Source: a virus. From it: a stretch of DNA of 23,772 nucleotides. The stretch is from IMG/VR virus record IMGVR_UViG_3300021961_007444, positions 1-23,772 of that record; one strand, written 5' to 3'. Positions within the stretch are counted from its first letter, which is position 1. The number at the start of each line of letters is the position of its first letter. The notes below the pieces were generated by a model. It had not been told where the DNA came from and made no database searches. It saw only the letters and a program-made list of their open reading frames with translations. Of this stretch, positions 1 through 19,300 are shown piece by piece. The translations under genes were made by a program, and so were the position numbers.

Positions 1-616
1 CCATCATGGCTTCAGTTTTATCATAATAACTGGCTCTGATAGGTTGATGTATCATAGCACAATGAACTACATTTGCTGGGCATTGAAATAGGTCATAAAA
101 AGTTTTATCGATACCCCATGCAATTTGTAATGGCCAATGAGAAATGAATTCCATTAGAAACTTAAATTTATCTAATGTGAAAAATGGAGAACCCATTTCA
201 ATAAAATTAGTCTCAGAAAAATGACAATTCGGATCATGTCTAAGACACTCATAGATCAAACTAGAATCATGAGGCATAGAAAGTTGCCAATACTGAAAAT
301 TCAAATTCTGCGCTAGAAGCAATCCTGTATTAAAATCTTTATAACCAGTAATCAAGTCATCATCGACGCAACCGATATATTTGTATTTGTCAATCGGGAA
401 AGTCTTTGCTACTTCTTGGATGATTTGCCATTTGTGTCCCTTCATTCTCAAGATATGATCATAAGAACCAGGTTCTGGCTCAAAGTCATTATATACTACA
501 ACGAGAGTTTCGTAAAGTCTTTCATTTTTTGTCCAGCGCCAGTGTTCTTCTTCAGACCATCTAGCATCATGAGGCATTTCCATACCAACAGGACATATAA
601 TCAAATTGTCTGCCAT
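1..616 (-). CDS. DUF707-like putative glycosyltransferase (partial, runs off the left edge)
   Basis: The frame is open from an ATG at 616 to the window edge with no stop, giving about 205 residues of an incomplete protein. Seen: an acidic IGCVDDD patch about 95 residues in, a later run containing GSPFF, then WGIDKTF, then a His/Ile-rich tail (VVHCAMIHQPI). This order (DDD-type motif, a G-x-P-F strand, W-G-x-D, then H) resembles the DUF707 family, which is related to nucleotide-sugar transferases; that match is from memory of the family pattern. A good ribosome site (AAAGG, six bases before ATG) sets the start, and the gene begins two bases after the stop of its upstream neighbour. It is the last visible gene of the sugar cassette. 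Its role, probably glycan transfer, is inferred, and acceptor and donor are unknown. Confidence 0.6.
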   Translation of the reverse strand, partial: MADNLIICPVGMEMPHDARWSEEEHWRWTKNERLYETLVVVYNDFEPEPGSYDHILRMKGHKWQIIQEVAKTFPIDKYKYIGCVDDDLITGYKDFNTGLLLAQNLNFQYWQLSMPHDSSLIYECLRHDPNCHFSETNFIEMGSPFFTLDKFKFLMEFISHWPLQIAWGIDKTFYDLFQCPANVVHCAMIHQPIRASYYDKTEAMM

Positions 617-618
617 AA

Positions 619-1326
619 TTAACCTTTATATGGTTCAAATTTCGCTCTCACTTCTGGATGAAAGCATGGGTGATCGGGCACATTCGGTCTACAGAGAGTA
701 TAGAATGTGTTTACATTACTTATTTCGTTTATTGTTGAGATAAAATTAAGATTTTCTTTATTAGTATGTTTTATGAGAAAGTTTATAATACCATGAGTAT
801 CTGGATATGCAGTACCTCTAGGCCATCCGTATGTTTCTCTCATAGAGTTTTTCATCACCCCACTAAAAGAATGATTCCAGATATAGAAACAATCACATAC
901 AAATAGATGAGATTTCCACCAAATAGGATCTTCAGGAAATAAAAAATTAATTTTATTAAAATCTATACTTTTTTCTTGAGCAATCTTTTTACTGAAATGA
1001 ATATCGAATCGGGTAAAAACTACAGCATCTAATTCTTCTCCCTGAATAGCATCGTGAAGTTTAGATTTAGCAGTAAATGCATCGGATTTAGAAAAGTCTG
1101 AAAATACTGTGACTTTCGGTTTGACCATATCAAAAAATTCTTCTTCAACTTTTTTATCATCGAACGGATATGTTGAGGCATAATTTATAGCCTCATATCC
1201 TTGGTCTACAAAAGGTTGAATCAGCATCGTTTGAATATTATTCCAACAATGACGAAAATCCCTAGAATACCCAGTTTTCTTATCGATGCCCTGGGTTATA
1301 CCATAAAAAGCAAAACCTAATTTCAT
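619..1326 (-). CDS. Hypothetical protein, glycosyltransferase-like, in sugar cassette
   Basis: A 235-residue protein whose ATG overlaps the stop of the methyltransferase gene (ATGA), so translation is probably coupled. I do not recognise a precise family. It opens with a short beta-strand-like segment (KLGFAFYGITQG), has a middle AVVFTRFDIHF strand with an R-F-D core, and is rich in aromatic residues (PIWWKSHLFVCDCFYIW). An R-x-D following a hydrophobic strand is often seen in GT-A-fold sugar transferases from mixed polysaccharide loci, so a transferase role is plausible, mainly from its neighbours. No signal peptide or membrane segment is visible. It could instead be an enzyme that recognises or modifies a sugar acceptor. 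Confidence 0.6.
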   Translation of the reverse strand: MKLGFAFYGITQGIDKKTGYSRDFRHCWNNIQTMLIQPFVDQGYEAINYASTYPFDDKKVEEEFFDMVKPKVTVFSDFSKSDAFTAKSKLHDAIQGEELDAVVFTRFDIHFSKKIAQEKSIDFNKINFLFPEDPIWWKSHLFVCDCFYIWNHSFSGVMKNSMRETYGWPRGTAYPDTHGIINFLIKHTNKENLNFISTINEISNVNTFYTLCRPNVPDHPCFHPEVRAKFEPYKG

Positions 1327-2522
1327 TCAGTTTTCTGCTCAGGAAAGTATTTCACAAAAGTGTCTTGATTATTTGGTCGAATGCTTTTAATCTTTCGTTT
1401 CATCTCTTCATAGAAATTCCATGCAAGAGGAATAAAACAAATATCCTCATCTTTATATTCATAAAGAGCATCCATACCTTTAATCGGAACAGAACTGCCA
1501 GGAGTATACAGACCTTGCTTCAAAGGATTTTCATCAATAATCAAATCTGGTGCTTCTTTTGCAAAATTCAAAAGTGTATTACCTTTTGCTGGTGCGCCAA
1601 GTCCGACAACCTTAACACCAAGTCTTTTGTATGCTCGAATCATACCTGCAACATATTCAGCTACCATAAGACACTTTTTGGTGTAATCTTCATAGGTTTT
1701 GTCTGTGTATAAACCTTTTTTCTGTTCAATAGAAATAAGATTTTCAATAGTTTTTGGTGCTTTATTAAACTTTGAGATAATGAAAATATAACTTGTACCA
1801 TGAACAGGAGATTTTACTACATCAATCAAGTTTAGGCCAGCACGTTTACAGAGTGCATCGATAGATTTGATATTATAGAAAGAAAGGTGTTCATGATAAA
1901 TTGTATCAAATTCACCATTCAAAATCATATCCGCTTGGGATGTCGTAGCAAATAACAGACTGTCTTTGTGCATCGTCTCCTTGATATTCTGGAGTAATTC
2001 GAGTTGGTTGAAGTTGTGTGCGAATGCGTTTTGACATACGATGACATCGAATTTTTCTTGGAATTCTTTTCCCGTAAAGTACCCGCAGACGATTTTGTGC
2101 CTTTGGGACGAAGTAGCATACAAGTTTTCCGCTGGATCAACGCCATAAGTTTCTGCTCCGTAATCTTGGAAGTAATTGAGTTGACTACCATCATTACAAC
2201 CAATATCGAGAACAGTTCGCGGCTTTGTACCATATTTTTCCGCTGCGAATTGAGCAAACCAATCAAAATATTCTAGCTGAGACTTTGCTGTACCAGAAAC
2301 ATATAGGTAATCTTTAAAAAGTAAATCTGGATTTACTCGGTGTGTCAACTGTACATGATAACAGTGTTTACACCGATTGATTGCAAGAGGATATTCCTCC
2401 TGAACTTCTTCTTTTGTTTTTTTAAATGAATTTGCTAGTGGCTGTTCATTTAAACTCAATGTCAAAAATAAATCTGAACTACCACAAGCAATACATTCTG
2501 TTATATGTTCACAATTATTCAT
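1323..2522 (-). CDS. SAM-dependent sugar C-methyltransferase (NovU/TylCIII-like)
   Basis: A 399-residue protein with the three-part layout of deoxysugar C-methyltransferases. First comes an N-terminal zinc-binding module with C10-x2-C13 and C51-x2-C54. Then a Rossmann SAM domain has motif I (VLDIGCNDGSQL, about 104-115). Last is a C-terminal Methyltransf_14-type domain containing GLGAPAKGNTLLN. Proteins with this layout methylate a ring carbon of 4-keto-6-deoxy nucleotide sugars. The upstream gene encodes a 4,6-dehydratase that would make exactly that type of substrate. I chose the ATG at 2522 because it makes an ATGA overlap with the dehydratase stop; an in-frame codon 12 bases upstream would add MARR inside the neighbour and is less likely. 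The family call is strong, the exact sugar is not known. Confidence 0.88.
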   Translation of the reverse strand: MNNCEHITECIACGSSDLFLTLSLNEQPLANSFKKTKEEVQEEYPLAINRCKHCYHVQLTHRVNPDLLFKDYLYVSGTAKSQLEYFDWFAQFAAEKYGTKPRTVLDIGCNDGSQLNYFQDYGAETYGVDPAENLYATSSQRHKIVCGYFTGKEFQEKFDVIVCQNAFAHNFNQLELLQNIKETMHKDSLLFATTSQADMILNGEFDTIYHEHLSFYNIKSIDALCKRAGLNLIDVVKSPVHGTSYIFIISKFNKAPKTIENLISIEQKKGLYTDKTYEDYTKKCLMVAEYVAGMIRAYKRLGVKVVGLGAPAKGNTLLNFAKEAPDLIIDENPLKQGLYTPGSSVPIKGMDALYEYKDEDICFIPLAWNFYEEMKRKIKSIRPNNQDTFVKYFPEQKTE

Positions 2523-3553
2523 GCGTCTAGCCACCTTCTATTCTGAAGATACCAATCGCTCACTTGTTTAATTCTTTCACTAAAAGCAATCGTTGGTTCC
2601 CAACCTAATGACCTCATCAAATCTCCACTCAAAGCATAACGAAGATCATGACCAGGCCTACTCGAATGAAAATCAATCATTTCATAAACTAATTGTTTAT
2701 TTTGTGCTTGAGCGATAAGTTTGGCTAATGTAAGATTATCTACTTCTTCTTTACCAACAATATTGAATTTAGCACACTTCGCACCACCATAATCAGGAGC
2801 GACTTTTGGTTTGTTAATCAAGAGAAATAGAAGGGCTTCAGCAACATCTTGTGCATGAATATAAAAACGACTTCCTGCATGAGTCTTCGTATGATCGGAA
2901 TGAATCCAAATTTTTTCACCTAAATCGACTTTCTTAATACAAAGAGGAATAAACTTCTCAGGAGTTTGACGTTCACCAAATACATTCATAGTATGGGTGA
3001 TCATCATAGGAATTTTGTATGTGTTTTCATATGCAACACACAATTCTTCCGCTCCTGCTTTTGATGCAGAATAAGGATTTGTAGAGTTATATCTCGCTCG
3101 TTCATCATATGAAACTCCTGGTGGCGCGGCACCAAAAATTTCATCTGTACTGAAATATAGGAAAGTATCGAGTCTATCGAGCCTTCGAGTATACTCTAGT
3201 AAATGTGCAGTACCGATAGTATTATCAAAAATAAATTCCATCGGATGAGTAATAGACCTATCAACATGCGAAGATGCTGCAAGATGAAGAATAATATCTG
3301 GTGTTCCAAACTTATGCATAAAGTTTTGAACTAGAGGATTAATCTCCGCTTTCAAATCATGAAATACGACATTCACTCTTTTCTTGGTTTCTTTGTCATA
3401 ATTCTCAAGAATTTCGTGAAGTCTATTCAAGTTGCCTGAAAAATCTAGTCTATCTAAGGTAGTAATTTTCCAGTCTGTTTTCTTAATTAACAATTCGATA
3501 ACATGGTGTGCAATGAATCCTGCTCCACCAGTAATTAATACATGCTTACTCAT
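2519..3553 (-). CDS. NAD-dependent nucleotide-sugar 4,6-dehydratase/epimerase (RmlB-like)
   Basis: A 344-residue extended short-chain dehydrogenase. Seen: the NAD-binding GGAGFI motif at about 9-14, the STDEIFG strand that carries the Thr-Asp-Glu set typical of dTDP-glucose and related 4,6-dehydratases, and the catalytic Y-x3-K in NPYSASKAG. The MNVFGERQ/EKFIP segment fits the substrate-binding half of the family. Length matches RmlB-type enzymes. The ATG at 3553 is preferred over a codon 24 bases upstream because AGGAG lies eight bases before it; it overlaps the end of the upstream gene by eight bases. The product would be a 4-keto-6-deoxy sugar nucleotide, fitting the C-methyltransferase encoded next. 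Whether the nucleotide is dTDP, GDP or CDP cannot be told from motifs alone. Confidence 0.88.
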   Translation of the reverse strand: MSKHVLITGGAGFIAHHVIELLIKKTDWKITTLDRLDFSGNLNRLHEILENYDKETKKRVNVVFHDLKAEINPLVQNFMHKFGTPDIILHLAASSHVDRSITHPMEFIFDNTIGTAHLLEYTRRLDRLDTFLYFSTDEIFGAAPPGVSYDERARYNSTNPYSASKAGAEELCVAYENTYKIPMMITHTMNVFGERQTPEKFIPLCIKKVDLGEKIWIHSDHTKTHAGSRFYIHAQDVAEALLFLLINKPKVAPDYGGAKCAKFNIVGKEEVDNLTLAKLIAQAQNKQLVYEMIDFHSSRPGHDLRYALSGDLMRSLGWEPTIAFSERIKQVSDWYLQNRRWLDA

Positions 3554-4232
3554 TAATAATATCTCCTGTTGGTGCAATCACACCTTCTAAACCAATAGGT
3601 TTCACTTCAACCCACTTATGCATATGTAGATTCTTATAATACGAATGTTCAACATCAATATTATATTGAACACAAGTATTAAAAATAATTGGTAGTTTAG
3701 ACTGAAACGTATCGAACAAAGAAGAGTCCATATGCCACAATCTCAATTCAAATATCCTATCAACACCAGCCTCTTCTTGTTTTTCTTTTGACATCCAAGA
3801 ATTAACTGTAGGTAAAAATACAAATGAATCTTTAAAGTCCTCTCTATTCAAAACAAAATTATCATTCAGTTCATATCTGCCTGATACTTTATAAATTCTT
3901 TTACATTCTACTCTATTTTTGGAGTAATAGTCAAGAGCAATAATAAAACTCATTGTCTCGGCTAAACTTCTCAAACCAACTTCCGAAAAATACCTAACTT
4001 GTGCATTATCTCCGGTATAAAAAAAAGTTACACCCATAAGACCAATCATACCAATATATTCACTTTTCGGTAATTCATAGGATGCATCAAATAAAATAAT
4101 CTTACTATTAGGGCAATATTTTTGTATCGACTTAATAGTTTTTACTGTTTGCTCATATCTTTCATCGTTATTGAAAACTGAAAGTTGTTTTACATTCAGA
4201 GCAGAACTTATGAAAAAGACTCCATCAACCAT
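3546..4232 (-). CDS. Hypothetical protein, possible glycosyltransferase, in sugar cassette
   Basis: A 228-residue protein starting at an ATG with GAGG six bases before it and overlapping the previous gene by eight bases. It shows alternating strands and helices (GVFFISSALNV, SKIILFDASYELP) and the motif RIYKVSGRYELN near the middle. K-x-S-G-R-Y is a pattern I associate with uncharacterised transferases of polysaccharide clusters, where the segment lies near the sugar-nucleotide site. There is no clean D-x-D, and I cannot place it in a named family. Neighbours on both sides handle sugars, so a role in glycan assembly is inferred. It is cytoplasmic as far as can be seen, with no signal peptide or membrane helix. 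Confidence 0.6.
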   Translation of the reverse strand: MVDGVFFISSALNVKQLSVFNNDERYEQTVKTIKSIQKYCPNSKIILFDASYELPKSEYIGMIGLMGVTFFYTGDNAQVRYFSEVGLRSLAETMSFIIALDYYSKNRVECKRIYKVSGRYELNDNFVLNREDFKDSFVFLPTVNSWMSKEKQEEAGVDRIFELRLWHMDSSLFDTFQSKLPIIFNTCVQYNIDVEHSYYKNLHMHKWVEVKPIGLEGVIAPTGDIINE

Positions 4233-5067
4233 ATTTTGCCTCTATAACTTTTCGCCATTCTGGTACTCTATCATACTGGTGAACAATAGTAAACTCTTTT
4301 CCTTCAGAAGTAGTAACTTTGCCGTCAATCATCTTAGGTTCTGCTTCTAAAAGAAATGGTCTGAACTGTTCAATTTTTGATGGGTCTGCTGTTGTACCTA
4401 ATTGTGAAGCCCATCCATCTTCAGAATTCATATACAAACTTGTGCTGCGATATGGTTCTTGAGATATCATGAAGTTAAATGTTGATTGATCACAAATAGG
4501 AATCGGGCGATTGATTGCAGCGGTAAAGATATTGATTGTTAAATCTCGAATAGCATATCCACGACCAGCCAAAACGCCTACATTATAAATTGTATTGTGT
4601 TTAAACTTATCATAGATGTATTGTCCATAGGTTTCAAGTAAGTTTTGATTGCCCCATGGTTCATCTTTATATCTCATGCTTTCAGATGCAAAGAGATAAT
4701 CTTTATCGGAACTATTAAGAAGTTCTTCAACATGTGGAATGGGATTTTTTTGAAAGACGACATCTTTAACATCGGTAGTAATTACAAATCTGTAATCATT
4801 CCGAGAAAGATGATCATAGATGTGAATAAATCTTTCGACATGAACAGGAATTCTTCCATGTTCATATACTAGGTCACCATTTTCATTCTGACCAAAACCG
4901 ATAACTTTAAAGCCGGAATCAATAACTCTTTTTACGGTTTCAATATCACAATTCATCAGAACCAAAACTTTTTCACCTTCGAATCCGCTTTGGTTGATTG
5001 AATTCACCCAATACTTCAATACATTCCAATTATATCCGGTGCTTGCACCAATTATCAAATCATTCAT
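4225..5067 (-). CDS. Putative GT-A-type glycosyltransferase
   Basis: A 280-residue protein. The N-terminus (LIIGASTGYNWNVLKYWVNS) resembles the first strand of transferases that begin by finding a donor pocket. The TTDVKDVVFQKNP segment, about 95 residues in, gives D-x3-D after a strand, the pattern of metal- and nucleotide-binding in DUF616/DUF1647-like GT-A proteins. Later features are YNVGVLAGRG, CDQSTFN and the C-terminal VHQYDRVPEW, where the His could complete metal binding. AAGGAG seven bases before the ATG gives a strong start. It is the first gene of the left sugar cassette, following a 30-base gap after the late cassette. Donor and acceptor are not identifiable; a virion or host-surface glycan is the natural guess. 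Confidence 0.72.
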   Translation of the reverse strand: MNDLIIGASTGYNWNVLKYWVNSINQSGFEGEKVLVLMNCDIETVKRVIDSGFKVIGFGQNENGDLVYEHGRIPVHVERFIHIYDHLSRNDYRFVITTDVKDVVFQKNPIPHVEELLNSSDKDYLFASESMRYKDEPWGNQNLLETYGQYIYDKFKHNTIYNVGVLAGRGYAIRDLTINIFTAAINRPIPICDQSTFNFMISQEPYRSTSLYMNSEDGWASQLGTTADPSKIEQFRPFLLEAEPKMIDGKVTTSEGKEFTIVHQYDRVPEWRKVIEAKYG

Positions 5068-5097: not shown

Positions 5098-5409
5098 CTA
5101 TTGACCAGGTGTATCCTTTTTATACTTGTTTGCCAAGTGTTTTGTTCCCCATTGTCCAGCTCCAGCGACAGGTAAAATATCTGGATTGGGAGACTTCTTT
5201 TCTTCATGTACACTTTTATGTAGTGTTGCTCCAGTTACTCTCTGGACAACATCCCATGCCTGTTTGTGTCTTTTATTCTTAACGTGATCATCAAATTCAT
5301 TACGTTCTTTTTGATTCGCTTTCTTTTTGAATTTGATTAGTTCCATAATACCTATATTTCCCGCATATGCAGCTTCATGTAGTATATTGAACTGTTTAAA
5401 ATTTAACAC
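5098..5409 (-). CDS. Small putative capsid-targeted internal protein (GTG start)
   Basis: A 103-residue basic protein, not assignable to a function. The start is GTG at 5409 with GAGG five bases upstream; the overlapping ATG at 5411 meets a stop after two codons. The N-terminus reads MLNFKQFNILHE followed by AAYAGN. This resembles the T4 capsid-targeting peptide of internal proteins (MKTYQEFIAE then A), which gp21 protease cuts after a Leu/Ile-x-Glu. Here L-H-E followed by A satisfies that rule. The rest is Lys/Arg-rich with an amphipathic helix (NKRHKQAWDVVQRVTG) and a Gly/Pro/Lys-rich tail, as expected for a DNA-associated internal protein. It is last in the late cassette. The targeting role is inference from motif and context. 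Confidence 0.72.
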   Translation of the reverse strand: MLNFKQFNILHEAAYAGNIGIMELIKFKKKANQKERNEFDDHVKNKRHKQAWDVVQRVTGATLHKSVHEEKKSPNPDILPVAGAGQWGTKHLANKYKKDTPGQ

Positions 5410-5410
5410 A

Positions 5411-5692
5411 TTAGCCTCTAGTCAAATTAAGTATTTTTTGTATCTGTGTTTCTAATGTCTGTTTTCTATTAGGCCACTTAATCACAGGCTGATCGGCAGT
5501 TTTCAGTAACTTAGTTAGAAAAGGTAAAATTAATTTTTCAACTTGTTCAAGTCTTTGTTTATACTCTTCAACTGTTTCATCTTTTTCCGCAATTACAGAT
5601 TCATAATCGGCATCATCTTCTGCGGTGAAACCAAAGTCATCATCACCATATTCTTCCATTATTTTGCTGATATCAAATTTCTTTTCCATCAT
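5411..5692 (-). CDS. Conserved small acidic phage protein, function unknown
   Basis: A 93-residue protein with a very acidic N-terminal part (EEYGDDDFGFTAEDDADYE) followed by a predicted coiled-coil-like helix (TVEEYKQRLEQVEKLILPF) and a short KWPNR segment. The DFGF-then-helix-then-WPNR layout is one I associate with uncharacterised small proteins of marine T4-like phages. Two adjacent ATGs occur at 5692 and 5689: the first overlaps the upstream stop as ATGA, the second as TGATG, and I cannot choose between them. The gene sits between the two proteins with capsid-targeting-like leaders but has no such leader itself. An acidic, helical protein could act as a partner or scaffold-type factor for its basic neighbours, which is only a suggestion. 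Confidence 0.75.
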   Translation of the reverse strand: MMEKKFDISKIMEEYGDDDFGFTAEDDADYESVIAEKDETVEEYKQRLEQVEKLILPFLTKLLKTADQPVIKWPNRKQTLETQIQKILNLTRG

Positions 5693-6921
5693 TTATTCCA
5701 ATTCTTTTGTGCTGTGAAATTCTGTAGACTAAATTCCAATCTATCAACTAGTTTTACAGCATTACCTTTGAGTTTATCCACTGCTACGAAACCTTCTGGA
5801 TTAGTAATTCTAAAACCATTTTCAGTTCTCATGAAAGTATTAGTAACTTGTTTCATTTGTTGCAATTTAGCAATAATCATATTCTTAGCTTCAACAAATA
5901 AATTTTGTAGATCAAATATTGCTTTCAAATCTGTAGTATTTGCTCTATAAAATCTCATCAATTCATTTTTTTCTTCTTGTCTTTTCTTTCTAGTGTCTTC
6001 TCTTTTCGCAGATAAAATTTCTTTATTTAATCTATCTTCTATCCATTTTAGTAATTCTACAGTATGAGATGTAGTATTGGTAATCTTTTTACCTTCCTTA
6101 ACTTTAGAATTATTGAACGTCTTTATTTGTAATTGAATTAAATCTGATGTGGATATTCTATTCAAAGTCATAGAATTCATTCTCTGAAATATTACTCCAG
6201 CTTCCGATAATATTTTATTGAGTTTTTTAGTTTCATCTTCAGTAAAAGTTGCTGTACCTGATGCATCAACAAAGTATGCATCTCGGAACCAAACATCTTT
6301 TGTTCGTTTTAAATTATTAATATCAATATTAAAAGATGATTTTAAATCTTGAATAGTTTGTCCAGTGTATGATGTATGAAATACGATACCCATTTCGGCT
6401 GCCAATATGCTTTTTGCTAAAGAAGAATCGGCAGGAACTGCATATACAATTGTATTAGGTTGAAAAAGTATATAATCAGTACCATCAATTGTTTCTCTTT
6501 GAATGTCACCCTTAGTAAACATCATATCACCCTGAAGGACTCCTTGAATGCCGAGTTTAGGTAGATATCTAAGTGCGACTTTTAGCTTTGCATTCAAACC
6601 TTCGCCTGTATGGTTTTTATCAATATCTTCTTCAGTATAATTTAATTTACTATCGACATTGAATATTCCTTTAGTTGCAACAAAAAACTTTCCATTCTCT
6701 GGATTAATTCCAGCAAAAACGGCAGGTGCTCCATCCCATTTTGTGGTCACATTAACTTTATTATTACTGTGACCTGCTAACATATCCCTAAGAGAACGGA
6801 GAAAATTTATTGCATCTCTAGCACCAGAAACGCCTCGATTAATTATCTCATCCTCGATATGTTCTAAGTGAACATTCTTTCCTTCTTTTTTACCTTCAGT
6901 TATAAATTGCTTAAAGTTCAT
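5689..6921 (-). CDS. Ligase-like (nucleotidyltransferase motif) protein with capsid-targeting-like leader
   Basis: A 410-residue protein. It begins MNFKQFITE then GKKEG, which matches the T4 prohead-targeting peptide and cut rule (Ile-x-Glu before a small residue). About 65 residues in is TTKWDGAPAVFAG: K-x-D-G is motif I of ATP- or NAD-dependent DNA and RNA ligases and capping enzymes, the Lys being the site that takes AMP. FVATKGIFN and VLQGDMMF follow at spacings that could be motifs Ia and III, but a clear motif V (K-x-K) is not obvious. I recall this kind of protein being labelled DUF6267 in marine phages, without a proven activity. The C-terminal half is a charged helical region (KREDTRKKRQEEKNELMRF). 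It is coupled to the upstream gene by ATGA and expressed from the late promoter at 8021-8028. Enzyme activity and packaging are both inferred. Confidence 0.78.
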   Translation of the reverse strand: MNFKQFITEGKKEGKNVHLEHIEDEIINRGVSGARDAINFLRSLRDMLAGHSNNKVNVTTKWDGAPAVFAGINPENGKFFVATKGIFNVDSKLNYTEEDIDKNHTGEGLNAKLKVALRYLPKLGIQGVLQGDMMFTKGDIQRETIDGTDYILFQPNTIVYAVPADSSLAKSILAAEMGIVFHTSYTGQTIQDLKSSFNIDINNLKRTKDVWFRDAYFVDASGTATFTEDETKKLNKILSEAGVIFQRMNSMTLNRISTSDLIQLQIKTFNNSKVKEGKKITNTTSHTVELLKWIEDRLNKEILSAKREDTRKKRQEEKNELMRFYRANTTDLKAIFDLQNLFVEAKNMIIAKLQQMKQVTNTFMRTENGFRITNPEGFVAVDKLKGNAVKLVDRLEFSLQNFTAQKNWNK

Positions 6922-7997
6922 AATTGTATTCCTACTTTGTCTCGTACTCTATCGAATGCGGCTTTACTTCTAAAAGCAAAATTATCATGTGTAACTGTAT
7001 CTTCTGCTGGCACCATTGATTGCATAACAAACTGAGGTACTCCGTTTTTAATACCCATTTTTACTATATTCAAATCTTGAAAACAATGCTTCATGATATT
7101 ATCAAAATCAAATTGATTCGATGATATAAATTTAATAAAACCATATACTATATTAGTAGTAGTAAAAGAAGCTTTTCCTGTTTTTAATTTTTGTTTTTCT
7201 GATTGTGGAACTTTAGTAGAATCTAAAACGAACCTTGTGAGAAAGGTTGCATATGCTTCTGGTTTTGATAAATTAATTGAAGAGATTTGTTTATCTTTAT
7301 TTTTCTCTATAATTACAGAATCTTTCTTGAAATCTACACCAGCAAACATTTTCTTCAAATCTAGTGCTGATATATCGAAACCTCTAGCAGTAGCATTATT
7401 ATTAATCAATGATTCGAATGCTAATATTACACCTTCAAACATTCCGTGATCGGTTAATTTCTGTATTACCTCTAATTCTTTTTGATTATTTCGGAAAACA
7501 GGATCACCTTTCATTTTATTAATTCTTTCATGAATTAATTTAGGTGCTAGTGTATTTGAACCACCAGTTAATGCTTTAGAACTGAACCCATAATGATGTT
7601 TATTACTAATAAAAAAGTCAAAAACTTCATAATTCTGTCTAGTGGGAAAAACAACATTATCGACTTTATGACCTTTTAAATATTTGATTGCAAATAAAGG
7701 ACCTAAAATTTCACCGAAGTCTGTAATGATTTTCTTTTCTTCTATTTGTTTTCCGCTATTATTATATGTGTTTTCGACCTGTTGTTGATTTGCTGAACCT
7801 TCCATAAAATCAACTAGAGTTTTCAGATAAATTTTAGAAGGTTCTGAAATTCCTGCTACTTCTTCTATTTGTTTTTTGACTACCTTAGGGTATTCTCGGA
7901 TAGGAATAACCCAAAATTTATCATTTTTTGCTCTAACTAATTCCGAAATGTCCTGTGTCGGTAGTCTGGAAAACAAATCACCAGGTTGTAAAAGCAT
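6918..7997 (-). CDS. Putative PD-(D/E)XK-like nuclease, first gene of the late cassette
   Basis: A 359-residue protein with no family I can name surely. A nuclease-like pattern is visible in the N-terminal half: a helix with Glu (DFGEILGPLFAIKYL), then a strand ending in Asp (YEVFDFFIS), then about 12 residues later GFSSKALTGGS. The order E, D, S-x-K with 14 residues from Asp to Lys is that of restriction-type PD-(D/E)XK nucleases in which the second acid is Ser. The C-terminal half is helical, basic and unrecognised. The start at 7997 has CGGAG five bases before ATG, and that ribosome site is inside a small hairpin just after the late promoter. Translation is coupled to the next gene, the ligase-like protein. 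Nuclease function is an inference of moderate weakness; the gene itself is certain. Confidence 0.72.
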   Translation of the reverse strand: MLLQPGDLFSRLPTQDISELVRAKNDKFWVIPIREYPKVVKKQIEEVAGISEPSKIYLKTLVDFMEGSANQQQVENTYNNSGKQIEEKKIITDFGEILGPLFAIKYLKGHKVDNVVFPTRQNYEVFDFFISNKHHYGFSSKALTGGSNTLAPKLIHERINKMKGDPVFRNNQKELEVIQKLTDHGMFEGVILAFESLINNNATARGFDISALDLKKMFAGVDFKKDSVIIEKNKDKQISSINLSKPEAYATFLTRFVLDSTKVPQSEKQKLKTGKASFTTTNIVYGFIKFISSNQFDFDNIMKHCFQDLNIVKMGIKNGVPQFVMQSMVPAEDTVTHDNFAFRSKAAFDRVRDKVGIQL

Positions 7998-8004
7998 AGA
8001 ATCT

Positions 8005-8019
8005 CCGATATTTTATCGG
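8005..8019 (-). promoter_or_regulatory. Small hairpin covering the ribosome site of the nuclease-like gene
   Basis: CCGATA, a three-base AAA loop and TATCGG form a perfect 6-bp stem. The 3' arm takes in the GG of the CGGAG ribosome site for the gene starting at 7997. A transcript reading through from gp41 would carry both arms. A late transcript starting about six bases after TATAAATA would lack part of the 5' arm. Confidence 0.55.
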
Positions 8020-8020
8020 T

Positions 8021-8028
8021 TATTTATA
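8021..8028 (-). promoter_or_regulatory. T4-type late promoter (TATAAATA)
   Basis: The octamer TATAAATA on the minus strand is identical to the T4 late promoter box used by gp55-directed polymerase. It overlaps the gp41 stop codon (GTA TAA) and lies 24 bases before the ATG at 7997. Part of the octamer is forced by the Val-stop coding, but its place directly before a new gene set supports real use. I saw no second copy elsewhere on this strand. Confidence 0.75.
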
Positions 8029-14085: not shown

Positions 14086-14604
14086 TTAATCTTTTTTAAT
14101 AAATTTGTCAAGTTGGGGAGGCTGCCAGCCCTCAGGTTTCATAACTTTACCTGCCTCATTCTTAATAACTTTACCTGTTTGAATGTCGATTTTGCTTAGA
14201 TTGCTACGGGCAACTTCATCCCAAGCACCATAAACATCCCAGCCTTTCATTTTACAGTAACCAAGAATTACCCAAATCATATCCATGCAAGCATCTAGTT
14301 GTTCGATATCATCATTTTTCTTGATGCCATCTTGAAATTCCCAAAATTCTTCATTGATAAGATTACGGTAAAGATAAACATTTTCCGATGAAGTTTTTTG
14401 ATCACATGCATCAATAAATGTATCAACATCTTTATAAAAATCAGTCTCAAGTTTTCTCAAAATAATTGCTCCATCCTTTTCTGTTATATCAAGCCTAGTA
14501 CCTTCATACCAGTTCATTTGTTCACACAGTTCGTCTGGCAACTGAAGAACAGCAGAACCATCATCTAGAACTTCAACAACTTCACCTATAAATTTATCCT
14601 TCAT
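14086..14604 (-). CDS. AbrB/MazE-like domain fused to a MazG-like pyrophosphohydrolase domain
   Basis: A 172-residue protein in two parts. Residues 1-50 (GEVVEVLDDGSAVLQLP, then CEQMNWYEGTRLDITEKDG, IILRK) follow the AbrB/SpoVT swapped-hairpin pattern: strand, D-G, strand, L-P-x-E, then G-x-x-hydrophobic, then D-G-x-I-I-L. That fold usually binds DNA, often as an antitoxin or regulator. The remainder contains NLINEEFWEFQDGIKK and QLDACMDMIWVILGYC, a MazG-like E-x2-E/D-x2-D helix pair, then a tail ending GWQPPQL like phage HisE/MazG-type proteins. I read it as a nucleotide-pool enzyme with an added DNA-binding or dimerising module. It overlaps the preceding gene by 11 bases. Confidence 0.78.
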   Translation of the reverse strand: MKDKFIGEVVEVLDDGSAVLQLPDELCEQMNWYEGTRLDITEKDGAIILRKLETDFYKDVDTFIDACDQKTSSENVYLYRNLINEEFWEFQDGIKKNDDIEQLDACMDMIWVILGYCKMKGWDVYGAWDEVARSNLSKIDIQTGKVIKNEAGKVMKPEGWQPPQLDKFIKKD

Positions 14605-14959
14605 TACTATTCGGGTCTAGTGCAACCCGTCTCCATTCATTATCAACTTTCAACCAAAGGCGCTTGTCTCGACCGACTGCCATTCCAACTTGCAAGTCAT
14701 ATTGCGGATTGATTGGAGCAAAAGTATATCCATTTGTATCTTTTGGAGGTTCTGGTAGTTTTGAGTAACCCTGTAAAGTAAGCGTTGTTATTCCAATAGG
14801 TTGCATATCTACATCAGCAACATCTACTGGTGCAGGCAACATTTCTTTAACGATTGTTTCTTTTGTATGAATTCGTTCAATCACTTCTTTGCCAGCAAGA
14901 ACACCACCAAGCAAACCACCGAGTAATCCAGTACCTCTAATAAATTTTCGTCTATTCAT
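14594..14959 (-). CDS. Twin-arginine (Tat) signal-bearing protein of unknown function
   Basis: A 121-residue protein whose N-terminus reads [20 protein letters not shown]: two adjacent Arg, a Phe two residues on, then a Gly/Leu-rich hydrophobic stretch. This fits the Tat export signal (S/T-R-R-x-F-L-K), which carries folded proteins across the cell membrane. There is no obvious signal peptidase A-x-A site, so it could stay anchored by its N-terminus. The mature part has Pro-rich turns (KLPEPPKDTNGYTFAPINP) and LWLKVDNEWRRV, and no known domain. GGAG five bases before the ATG and an ATGA overlap with the deaminase stop define the start. Export of a phage early protein would point to action at the host envelope; that is inference. 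Confidence 0.75.
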   Translation of the reverse strand: MNRRKFIRGTGLLGGLLGGVLAGKEVIERIHTKETIVKEMLPAPVDVADVDMQPIGITTLTLQGYSKLPEPPKDTNGYTFAPINPQYDLQVGMAVGRDKRLWLKVDNEWRRVALDPNSNEG

Positions 14960-15399: not shown

Positions 15400-15530
15400 A
15401 TTGCCTCATATTCATCTTTACCTACACCACACTCAGGGCAAGTAAAGTCATCAGGCAATTCTTCCCATTTACCTTCTGTTGCTTCATCGTGTACATGCCC
15501 ACATACTACACAAACATAATCGGGTTTCAT
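15396..15530 (-). CDS. Rubredoxin (44 residues)
   Basis: A short gene that is easy to miss because it is only 44 codons plus stop. The product has two Cys pairs, C7-x2-C10-G and C31-x2-C34-G, with [18 protein letters not shown] at the second: the iron-binding knuckles and PDDF/GKDEY signature of rubredoxins. The loop between the pairs is shorter than in classical 52-residue rubredoxins. Rubredoxins carry single electrons, commonly to rubrerythrin. GGAGG lies five bases before the ATG at 15530, which also overlaps the rubrerythrin stop (ATGA), so the two are made together. Function as electron donor to the rubrerythrin next door is strongly suggested by this pairing. Confidence 0.92.
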
Positions 15531-15982
15531 AGAGCCTCCAATACTTTTTTGTATGCATTTGCATGGCGTTCTTCGACTTTCTTCAAAGCATGAAAACGTT
15601 TTTCTGCTTTCTCAAGAAGTTCGATAAATTGTCGTGCATGTTCTTCCGATTCTTGAATTTGTCCTTCAAATTCTTCAACCGATTTCATATCACCTTCTGT
15701 CTGAGCGATTGCTTCAAACTGAGGATACATTTCGGTATATTCATATGTCTCTCCAGCGATTGCTTTCTCAAGACATTCTTTTGTGCTTGGTTTACCAATG
15801 AGCAATTCGAGATGTCCCCATGCATGTTTAATTTCTTGGTCTGCGGTATGTTCGAAGTGTTTTGCAACATCTTCAAAGCCTTCGGCGCGAGCAATCTTAG
15901 CGAAGTATCTATACTTGATATGAGCCATTGATTCGCCAGCCAATGCGCTCTCAAGATTTTTTAGTGTTACGGAGGTTGTCAT
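15527..15982 (-). CDS. Rubrerythrin (diiron ferritin-like domain)
   Basis: A 151-residue four-helix protein. Iron-ligand helices can be seen: [10 protein letters not shown] (E17), [12 protein letters not shown] (E50 and H53), [12 protein letters not shown] (E78, E81) and [12 protein letters not shown] (Glu with H115), the order of rubrerythrins. The C-terminal rubredoxin-like domain normally fused to rubrerythrin is absent, and a separate rubredoxin gene follows instead. Rubrerythrins reduce hydrogen peroxide. AGGAT precedes the ATG at 15982. It lies ten bases after the phosphoesterase stop and probably belongs to the same operon as gp43. In a phage this would be a host-stress enzyme; peroxide removal during infection is inference. 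Confidence 0.92.
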
Positions 15983-18371: not shown

Positions 18372-19300
18372 TTGAACTCCAGGCTTACCATCAGTTCAGT
18401 GAGACATGCAACAGTATTAATCTGAGTATCAGCAACGAAAGCTTGTTTATACTGATAGTCTGCAAGAATAATCACTGCTTGCGGAATGCTCTGAGGTTGC
18501 AAGAGGTCATATAGGCTGTCATAGATTTTTCTATACAGTGTCGCAGGATCTACATCATTAGAAGCGACCCACTTACGAATTGCACCAAAGTCTTTCTCTT
18601 TCAATGCTTTCGTAATTTCAGTAATAGAAACATCACCGACTTGAGAAAGAATTCCAGTATCGATCCTACCAAACTTCGAATATCTCTGAAGTTCATTGAT
18701 AGTTCTACGAAAATCTGGAAAGTGTTTCTTGACTACTTCAGCCAAAACTTTCTGATCGAATTCGACATTCTCCTTCTCCAAGATTTGAAGTACCATCTTG
18801 TAGAAGAGTCCGGCCATCTGTACCTTTTCATCAGACCTCAAAGTGAAGTCTACAACTGCACAACGAGAGTGCAAAGGATCGATAATCCGATTCTTGAAGT
18901 TACAAGTGAAGATGAAAGAACAATTGCCTGCGAATTCTTCCATAGCATTACGAAGAGCAGGCTGGGTTGAATTAGGATTCAAATAGTCTGCTTCATCAAT
19001 GATGATAACTTTGCGACCACCAGTAAATGATACCGATGATGCAAAGTCTTTAATCTTTGTACGAAAGACATCGATGCCGGACTCATCAGAACCATTGATC
19101 ATGATAAAGTCGGCACCGATTTCATTGCACAGTGCTTTTGCTACAGTTGTTTTACCAATGCCTGCTCCGCCATGCAAAAGAAGATGTGGAATGTTTTCTG
19201 ATTTAACATACTCCTGAAAAGGCTTTTTAAGCCTTTCAGGAAGAATGCACTTATCAATCGTTTGCGGGCGGTACTTCTCCGTCCAAAGTAAATGTTCCAT
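18368..19300 (-). CDS. 44: Clamp loader large subunit gp44 (AAA+ ATPase)
   Basis: A 310-residue AAA+ protein of the RFC/DnaX clan. Walker A is GGAGIGKT at 44-51, Walker B is VIIIDEADYLN (D102-E103-A-D105), and the arginine-finger SRC motif is at 145-147 (DPLHSRCAVV). The opening LLWTEKYRPQTIDKCILP is the standard clamp-loader N-terminus. A C-terminal helical collar follows. It hydrolyses ATP to place gp45 on primed DNA. GAGG lies five bases before the ATG at 19300. Genes 45, 44, 62 and regA follow one another as in T4. Confidence 0.97.
   Translation of the reverse strand: MEHLLWTEKYRPQTIDKCILPERLKKPFQEYVKSENIPHLLLHGGAGIGKTTVAKALCNEIGADFIMINGSDESGIDVFRTKIKDFASSVSFTGGRKVIIIDEADYLNPNSTQPALRNAMEEFAGNCSFIFTCNFKNRIIDPLHSRCAVVDFTLRSDEKVQMAGLFYKMVLQILEKENVEFDQKVLAEVVKKHFPDFRRTINELQRYSKFGRIDTGILSQVGDVSITEITKALKEKDFGAIRKWVASNDVDPATLYRKIYDSLYDLLQPQSIPQAVIILADYQYKQAFVADTQINTVACLTELMVSLEFK

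Follow-up and report, generated by a model that had tools for sequence, protein, structure and literature searches.

A DNA fragment of a T4-like phage from the IMG/VR database (IMGVR_UViG_3300021961_007444; 23,772 nucleotides (nt), or 23.8 kb; hereafter the window, to whose whole length all coordinates refer) contains a cassette of four genes, the first two of which encode a nuclease-like protein of 359 amino acids (aa) and a 410-aa protein of the family DUF6267 (Table 1). We see an even chance that the cassette specifies a ligase-like adenylyltransferase that would be made late in infection, together with an interchangeable nuclease, and that in the lineage of the window the former is tagged for the phage head. 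This reading is based on motifs, gene order, a leader peptide, and the position of a promoter, all compared across related phages.

The 410-aa protein has the motifs of ligases and capping enzymes

The 410-aa protein is a member of DUF6267 (PF19782; E value of 4.8e-110, 368.9 bits compared to a cut-off of 27, profile positions 1-376 of 376) and of phrog_455, both of which are families of unknown function. DUF6267 was found by tblastn in 466 phage records, mostly those of cyanophages, and the closest isolates were Methylophilales phages (Melnitz, 52.6% identity). Our literature search found no paper that describes DUF6267 by name.

The ligase-type motifs hold the most conserved residues of the family. 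A first, sequence-only reading of this DNA had noticed a ligase motif I (K-W-D-G), and this held up in an alignment of 31 divergent DUF6267 members, in which K61 and D63 were invariant (31/31) and G64 was kept in 29 of 31. Motifs III (Q130-G-D132), IV (E376-G-F-V379), and V (K390 and R394) were also present, in that order, with Q130-G-D132, E376-G-x-V379, and K390 kept in 29-31 of the 31 members. The columns with the highest conservation were K61-x-D63-G64, K84, Q130-G-D132, E376-G-x-V379, K390, and R394. In the most divergent member, that of S-CREM2, motif I is K-I-D-G, with W62 changed and KxDG kept. The shorter versions of the protein, in S-SM1 (324 aa) and S-CREM2 (296 aa), keep the motifs.

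In an AlphaFold2 model of the 410-aa protein (predicted local distance difference test score (pLDDT) of 80.7), the ligase-type motifs are on or next to strands, and there is a helical insert at approximately residues 228-360 that is shortened in S-CREM2. Comparison of the model with known ligase folds gave a divided answer: 30 of the best 50 matches in a Foldseek search of the PDB were DNA ligases, capping enzymes, or RNA ligase (our own count), but each match was weak (best E value of 0.2 and low template modelling scores; PDB and viral matches had E values of 0.1-2). Among viral predicted structures, the annotated enzymes that came after the family itself included T4 RNA ligase and DNA ligases, again as weak matches. 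Searches of PDB sequences with the alignments of the 410-aa and 359-aa proteins returned nothing relevant, and there was no match above cut-off in NCBIfam or PADLOC for the cassette proteins.

Motifs I, III, IV, and V match those of the covalent nucleotidyltransferase superfamily (ATP- and NAD+-dependent DNA ligases, T4 Rnl1 and Rnl2, and mRNA capping enzymes) in what they contain and in how they follow one another, as do the predicted strands beneath them. DUF6267 differs from that superfamily in that it has no Pfam ligase match, an insert of about 130 helical residues between motifs III and IV, a conserved N-terminal HLEHxED, and no profile-level link to Rnl1. Based on these comparisons, we conclude that the 410-aa protein is probably a divergent ligase-like nucleotidyltransferase, and we assign it to no named ligase family.

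The gene upstream of DUF6267 is nuclease-like and appears to be exchangeable

The 359-aa protein has an invariant nuclease-like pattern. The E, D, and S-x-K residues that had been picked out from the sequence (E96, D127, S139, and K141), as well as G95 and N122, were invariant in 37/37 aligned relatives, down to approximately 20% identity. The family had 51 loci in an alignment-based scan. In the AlphaFold2 model (pLDDT of 80.4), E96 lies on a helix that is followed by neighbouring strands bearing D127 and K141, which is the arrangement found in PD-(D/E)XK nucleases. The protein differs from these nucleases in that none of their solved members matched it by sequence or by fold, and it has no family in Pfam, PHROG, NCBIfam, or PADLOC.

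The nuclease-like gene and DUF6267 are linked in many phages. At an 80% identity threshold, the 359-aa family formed 26 clusters, and DUF6267 was in the examined flank and on the same strand in 15 of these, at a distance of 100 nt or less in 7. Three isolates, S-SZBM1, S-WAM1, and C48C1, have the two genes as a contiguous pair. At one locus (L151:2638-6305) DUF6267 is upstream and not downstream of the 359-aa relative, the sole such order that we observed. At another locus (L153:7101-9264), the nuclease-like gene is directly followed by two short pieces of DUF6267 and then by a full-length DUF6267 gene, a possible duplication or replacement.

Elsewhere, unrelated proteins are found at the position of the 359-aa protein. 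In Melnitz, HTVC008M, and S-SM1, the position is occupied by an unrelated protein with an invariant PKTD...SxK. The protein of DLP6 is of a third kind (PKSD...SHK), and other DUF6267 genes have further unrelated proteins upstream, for a total of at least six mutually unrelated D...SxK families. We rejected the idea that the 359-aa protein is a relative of the Melnitz-type family because hhalign found no match between them, and we therefore treat the two as separate families in one slot. A compact pattern, D-h-x-h...h-S-x-K, was present in the slot proteins of six of the nine family groupings versus 6.3% of similar-sized ordinary phage genes, an enrichment that is a strong hint and not a clean test because we grouped the families by eye and tuned the regular expression on known members. 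The groupings outside the compact pattern are the L003 and L005/L013 types, with longer spacing, and the L033 type, with no such pattern. Exchange at this position, with unrelated D...SxK proteins occupying the slot ahead of DUF6267, is a feature that is new here.

The genes downstream are also linked to DUF6267. A PF01467 cytidylyltransferase is commonly encoded downstream, and some cyanophages have it as a fusion with DUF6267. In the old S-PM2 record (L079, AJ630128/NC_006820), the open reading frame (ORF) for DUF6267 and cytidylyltransferase is split, and the newer record LN828717 has a single ORF of 591 aa; the split is probably due to a frameshift in the older sequence. The family of the 103-aa protein, the product of the last gene in the cassette, had DUF6267 sequence at 39/39 related loci, mostly one or two genes upstream.

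A capsid-targeting-like leader is present on DUF6267 in some lineages

We searched all genes of four phages and of the window with a strict leader pattern, M-x(1-3)-[FY]-x-x-[FY]-[ILV]-x-E. In the window, the pattern matched one of 35 genes, that for the 410-aa protein (MNFKQFITE/G, with the slash at the end of the leader). In T4, it matched ipII, ipIII, and gp61.1 among 274 genes; in S-SM1, only the cytidylyltransferase T4-GC190; and in Melnitz, two candidates with a TTG start besides the nuclease-like gene and DUF6267. It matched no gene among all those scanned in HTVC008M, and none of the control shadow ORFs (0/1,508). A looser pattern was too noisy (4 shadow matches versus 15 gene matches) and was dropped. 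The leader, whose likeness to the T4 prohead-targeting peptide was noticed in the sequence-only reading, is a specific capsid-targeting signature, and it recurs in divergent DUF6267 relatives: besides the lineage of the window, the leader is on DUF6267 of Melnitz, C48C1, and DLP6 and at loci L061, L064, L066, L078, and L186.

Similar leaders are present on other proteins. The nuclease-like protein itself has one at L177, L182, L183, L185, and L186, as does the position-equivalent protein of Melnitz, although the 359-aa protein in the window does not. The 103-aa product has a related leader (VLNFKQFNILHE/AAYAGN, that is, LNFKQFNILHE before a conserved AAYAGN), and its relatives have a junction of the type E/AA[YS][AV]GN after a variable leader. 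T4 gp61.1 (L121, record 18966-19130), which is annotated as hypothetical, has a perfect capsid-targeting-like leader, MKTFKEFIKED. A RimK-like ATP-grasp protein of Melnitz (L112:82-1131, TTG start) begins with TQKFSQFITEE and is possibly another head-targeted enzyme.

Tagged proteins have been detected in virions. Mass spectrometry of purified virions found the cytidylyltransferase T4-GC190 in S-SM1 (PMC3037559), a tagged cytidylyltransferase (MRFRQFIIEA) in S-SZBM1 (PMC9146016), and a tagged cytidylyltransferase (MKNFSSFLTEA) in S-CREM2 (PMC10665884). Those of S-SM1 and S-SZBM1 are encoded at the cassette locus, and that of S-CREM2 is the same kind of enzyme from another locus. Where such data exist, which is in few cases, the strict pattern is a good predictor of head proteins. 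This NMNAT-like cytidylyltransferase (phrog_395/3041), a neighbour or fusion partner of DUF6267 with the same type of leader, differs from DUF6267 in its HIGH-type nucleotidyltransferase fold (PF01467) and was not found in the window.

A close parallel to the tagged 410-aa protein is found in the T4 proteins IPI-IPIII and Alt, which have the same type of leader (MKTYQEFIAE/A compared to MNFKQFITE/G), a predicted cleavage after Glu, and a late T4-type promoter. IPI-III are inhibitors of restriction enzymes (PMC12373910), and Alt is an ADP-ribosyltransferase; unlike the cassette proteins, none of the T4 IP proteins or Alt is ligase-like or nuclease-like, and the packaging of DUF6267 is a prediction. 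We predict packaging into the head for the lineage of the window and not for DUF6267 as a whole.

The position of a late promoter is conserved

The sequence TATAAATA upstream of the cassette occurs as a single exact copy in the window, counting both strands. Because 2.3 copies would be expected, this count is not above chance, its occurrence alone is not unexpected, and the evidence for a promoter is its conserved position. TATAAATA was found again at -29 to -47 relative to the gene that is homologous or in the equivalent position at L072-L077, L149, L150, and L153 and in phage Melnitz, and the 359-aa relatives that keep it at the cassette position are proteins with 47-61% identity. From this conservation we predict late expression of the cassette, in agreement with the sequence-only reading. 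The published late promoter of S-PM2 is NATAAATA (PMC2984593).

In S-SM1 and HTVC008M, CTAAATA replaces TATAAATA at approximately -31 to -38. ATAAATA and CTAAATA were both strongly biased to the coding strand in the genomes of Melnitz, HTVC008M, and S-SM1 (in S-SM1, 37:1 and 29:1, respectively). This bias is compatible with use as promoters, and stop codons at gene ends could be a partial cause. CTAAATA was almost exclusively on the coding strand in all three genomes (29:1 in S-SM1, L138-L146; 18:1 in HTVC008M, L130-L137; and 16:1 in Melnitz, L112-L114), and it may be a second form of the late promoter.

Canonical ligases are absent from most DUF6267 records

PF01068, the canonical ligase, was absent from 11 of the 12 DUF6267 records examined (two of the records are fragments near 100 kb), a sample that is small and phylogenetically uneven. 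It was present in T4 (gp30), which has no DUF6267, and in G003, which has the 359-aa family and no DUF6267. None of the 12 records tested for PF01653, among them T4, contained it, and PF09414, tested in five records, was found in T4 only. A review by Clokie and colleagues reports that homologues of gp30 were not found in cyanomyoviruses, leaving open a distant one, and that the host-DNA degradation functions DenA, Ndd, and DenB are also absent from T4-like cyanophages (PMC2984593). DUF6267 and its nuclease-like partner are candidates for the missing gp30 ligase and host-DNA degradation functions. They would be functional counterparts of the T4 gp30 ligase and the DenA and DenB nucleases, to which they have no detectable homology.

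Several results weigh against a head-tagged, ligase-like enzyme with a nuclease partner. None of the fold or profile matches of the 410-aa protein was significant by itself, and its profile similarity to T4 Rnl1 (hhalign score of 20.7) was inside a shuffled null that reached 22.5. The PDB fold search with the 359-aa model gave nothing significant and no nuclease. DLP6 encodes both DUF6267 and a PF01068 ligase, which rules out strict mutual exclusion of the two and indicates that DUF6267 is not a simple ligase substitute. Lastly, the cyanophage DUF6267 proteins have no leader and start at or near the conserved HLEHLED, and those of S-SZBM1 (PMC9146016) and S-CREM2 (PMC10665884) are not among the listed virion proteins, indicating that packaging is dispensable for the core function of the family.

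Other functions of the cassette are possible

DUF6267 might be the missing DNA ligase for replication or packaging, active late in infection inside the producing cell, with head loading incidental or confined to certain lineages and no action at the start of the next infection. We consider this possible, if doubtful. The leaderless cyanophage proteins argue for it, as they are unlisted in the two virion proteomes yet keep all motifs, and so do the frequent location of the DUF6267 gene directly after replisome genes and the absence of gp30 and PF01068 described above. However, the promoter is of the late and not the early or middle type, capsid-targeting leaders recur on DUF6267 and on the nuclease-like partner across many lineages, and DLP6 has both ligases.

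The presence of so many unrelated D...SxK families next to a conserved DUF6267 also fits a nuclease-plus-antidote arrangement, in which the slot would encode an exchangeable nuclease that interferes with rival phages or mobile DNA, and the role of DUF6267 would be to seal the phage's own genome or protect it from this nuclease. This seems unlikely to us: S-CREM2 and other cyanophages (L037-L056) have DUF6267 with no nuclease-like gene directly upstream, and rapid turnover is normal for any restriction-like nuclease.

It is quite improbable that DUF6267 is an injected RNA-repair enzyme like T4 Rnl1 that reseals tRNAs after cleavage by host anticodon nucleases, with the partner as an independent anti-host effector. 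The motif IV-V segment of DUF6267 from HTVC008M (EGYVAVDKSGKAVKLVDR) resembles that of T4 RnlA (EGYVAVMKDGSHFKIKSDW), and one of the weak viral fold matches was T4 RNA ligase, but the profile score was within the null even without the helical insert, and on this basis we rejected kinship with Rnl1. In addition, the partner is like a DNA nuclease, and an end-healing kinase or phosphatase was not identified adjoining it. Least probable is that DUF6267 keeps a ligase-like fold without enzyme activity and serves as a scaffold or a DNA-binding head protein: the family is of unknown function and its fold matches are individually weak, but the best-conserved positions include catalytic residues and not core residues alone, and this extends to the 296-aa member with its shortened insert.

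Organization of the cassette and its surroundings

All four coupled genes described in the sequence-only reading were found as ORFs on the minus strand. The first two junctions are 4-nt overlaps (ATGA), and the genes at the last junction are 1 nt apart.

Table 1. Location of the cassette genes and associated features in the window
Feature	Coordinates	Strand	Remarks
T4-type late promoter TATAAATA	8028-8021	-	31 nt before the ATG of the 359-aa gene
Nuclease-like gene, 359 aa	7997-6918	-	PD-(D/E)XK-type pattern; no leader in the window lineage
DUF6267 gene, 410 aa	6921-5689	-	Ligase-like motifs I, III, IV, V
Capsid-targeting-like leader MNFKQFITE of the 410-aa protein	6921-6895	-	Prohead-protease cut predicted after Glu9
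Acidic ORF, 93 aa	5692-5411	-	Translation; weak, below-threshold likeness to a phage scaffold family
103-aa gene, GTG start	5409-5098	-	Leader-like N-terminus, then AAYAGN

Gene order on the minus strand of the window is T4-like (CobS-like ATPase, clamp, clamp loader, RegA, Hsp20, DNA polymerase, UvsX-like recombinase, and DnaB-like helicase), and the cassette is directly after the gene for the DnaB-like helicase. A block of sugar-modification genes then adjoins the cassette (1-5067, minus strand), with epimerase, C-methyltransferase, and glycosyltransferase-like genes. Two other minus-strand genes in the window encode a Rubrerythrin/ferritin-like protein (15527-15982; PF02915, E value of 4.5e-18) and a 121-aa protein with an N-terminus that resembles a twin-arginine export signal and with no family match (14594-14959).

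A model for the cassette

We propose that the cassette is a late-transcribed unit of two enzymes. DUF6267 would be a divergent covalent nucleotidyltransferase that transfers adenosine monophosphate onto Lys61 and then joins or caps the ends of nucleic acids, and its neighbour would be a PD-(D/E)XK-like nuclease that is freely swapped between phages. Where DUF6267 has the leader, it would be loaded into the prohead, cut after Glu9 by the prohead protease, and enter the next cell alongside the DNA, such that an end-joining activity would be available ahead of all phage gene expression. The likeliest role for the two proteins would be in DNA processing, both at the start of infection and during late replication or packaging: the nuclease would cut DNA of host or foreign origin and phage DNA would be sealed by the ligase-like enzyme, thereby filling the gap left by the absent gp30 and DenA/DenB.

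A broader version of this proposal, to which we are less inclined than not, is that in Kyanoviridae-type phages DUF6267 is a hitherto overlooked ligase that replaces gp30 and is coupled to the exchangeable nuclease slot, and that several lineages load both proteins into the head and inject them as a cut-and-seal kit, with which infection would begin by breaking down foreign DNA and repairing the genome of the phage.

DUF6267, which is in more than 460 phage records, and the nuclease-like slot next to it are concrete candidates, with named residues, for two gaps in the known functions of T4-like cyanophages. If the leader works, end-joining enzymes would be among the few activities that enter the cell together with the DNA of T4-like phages.

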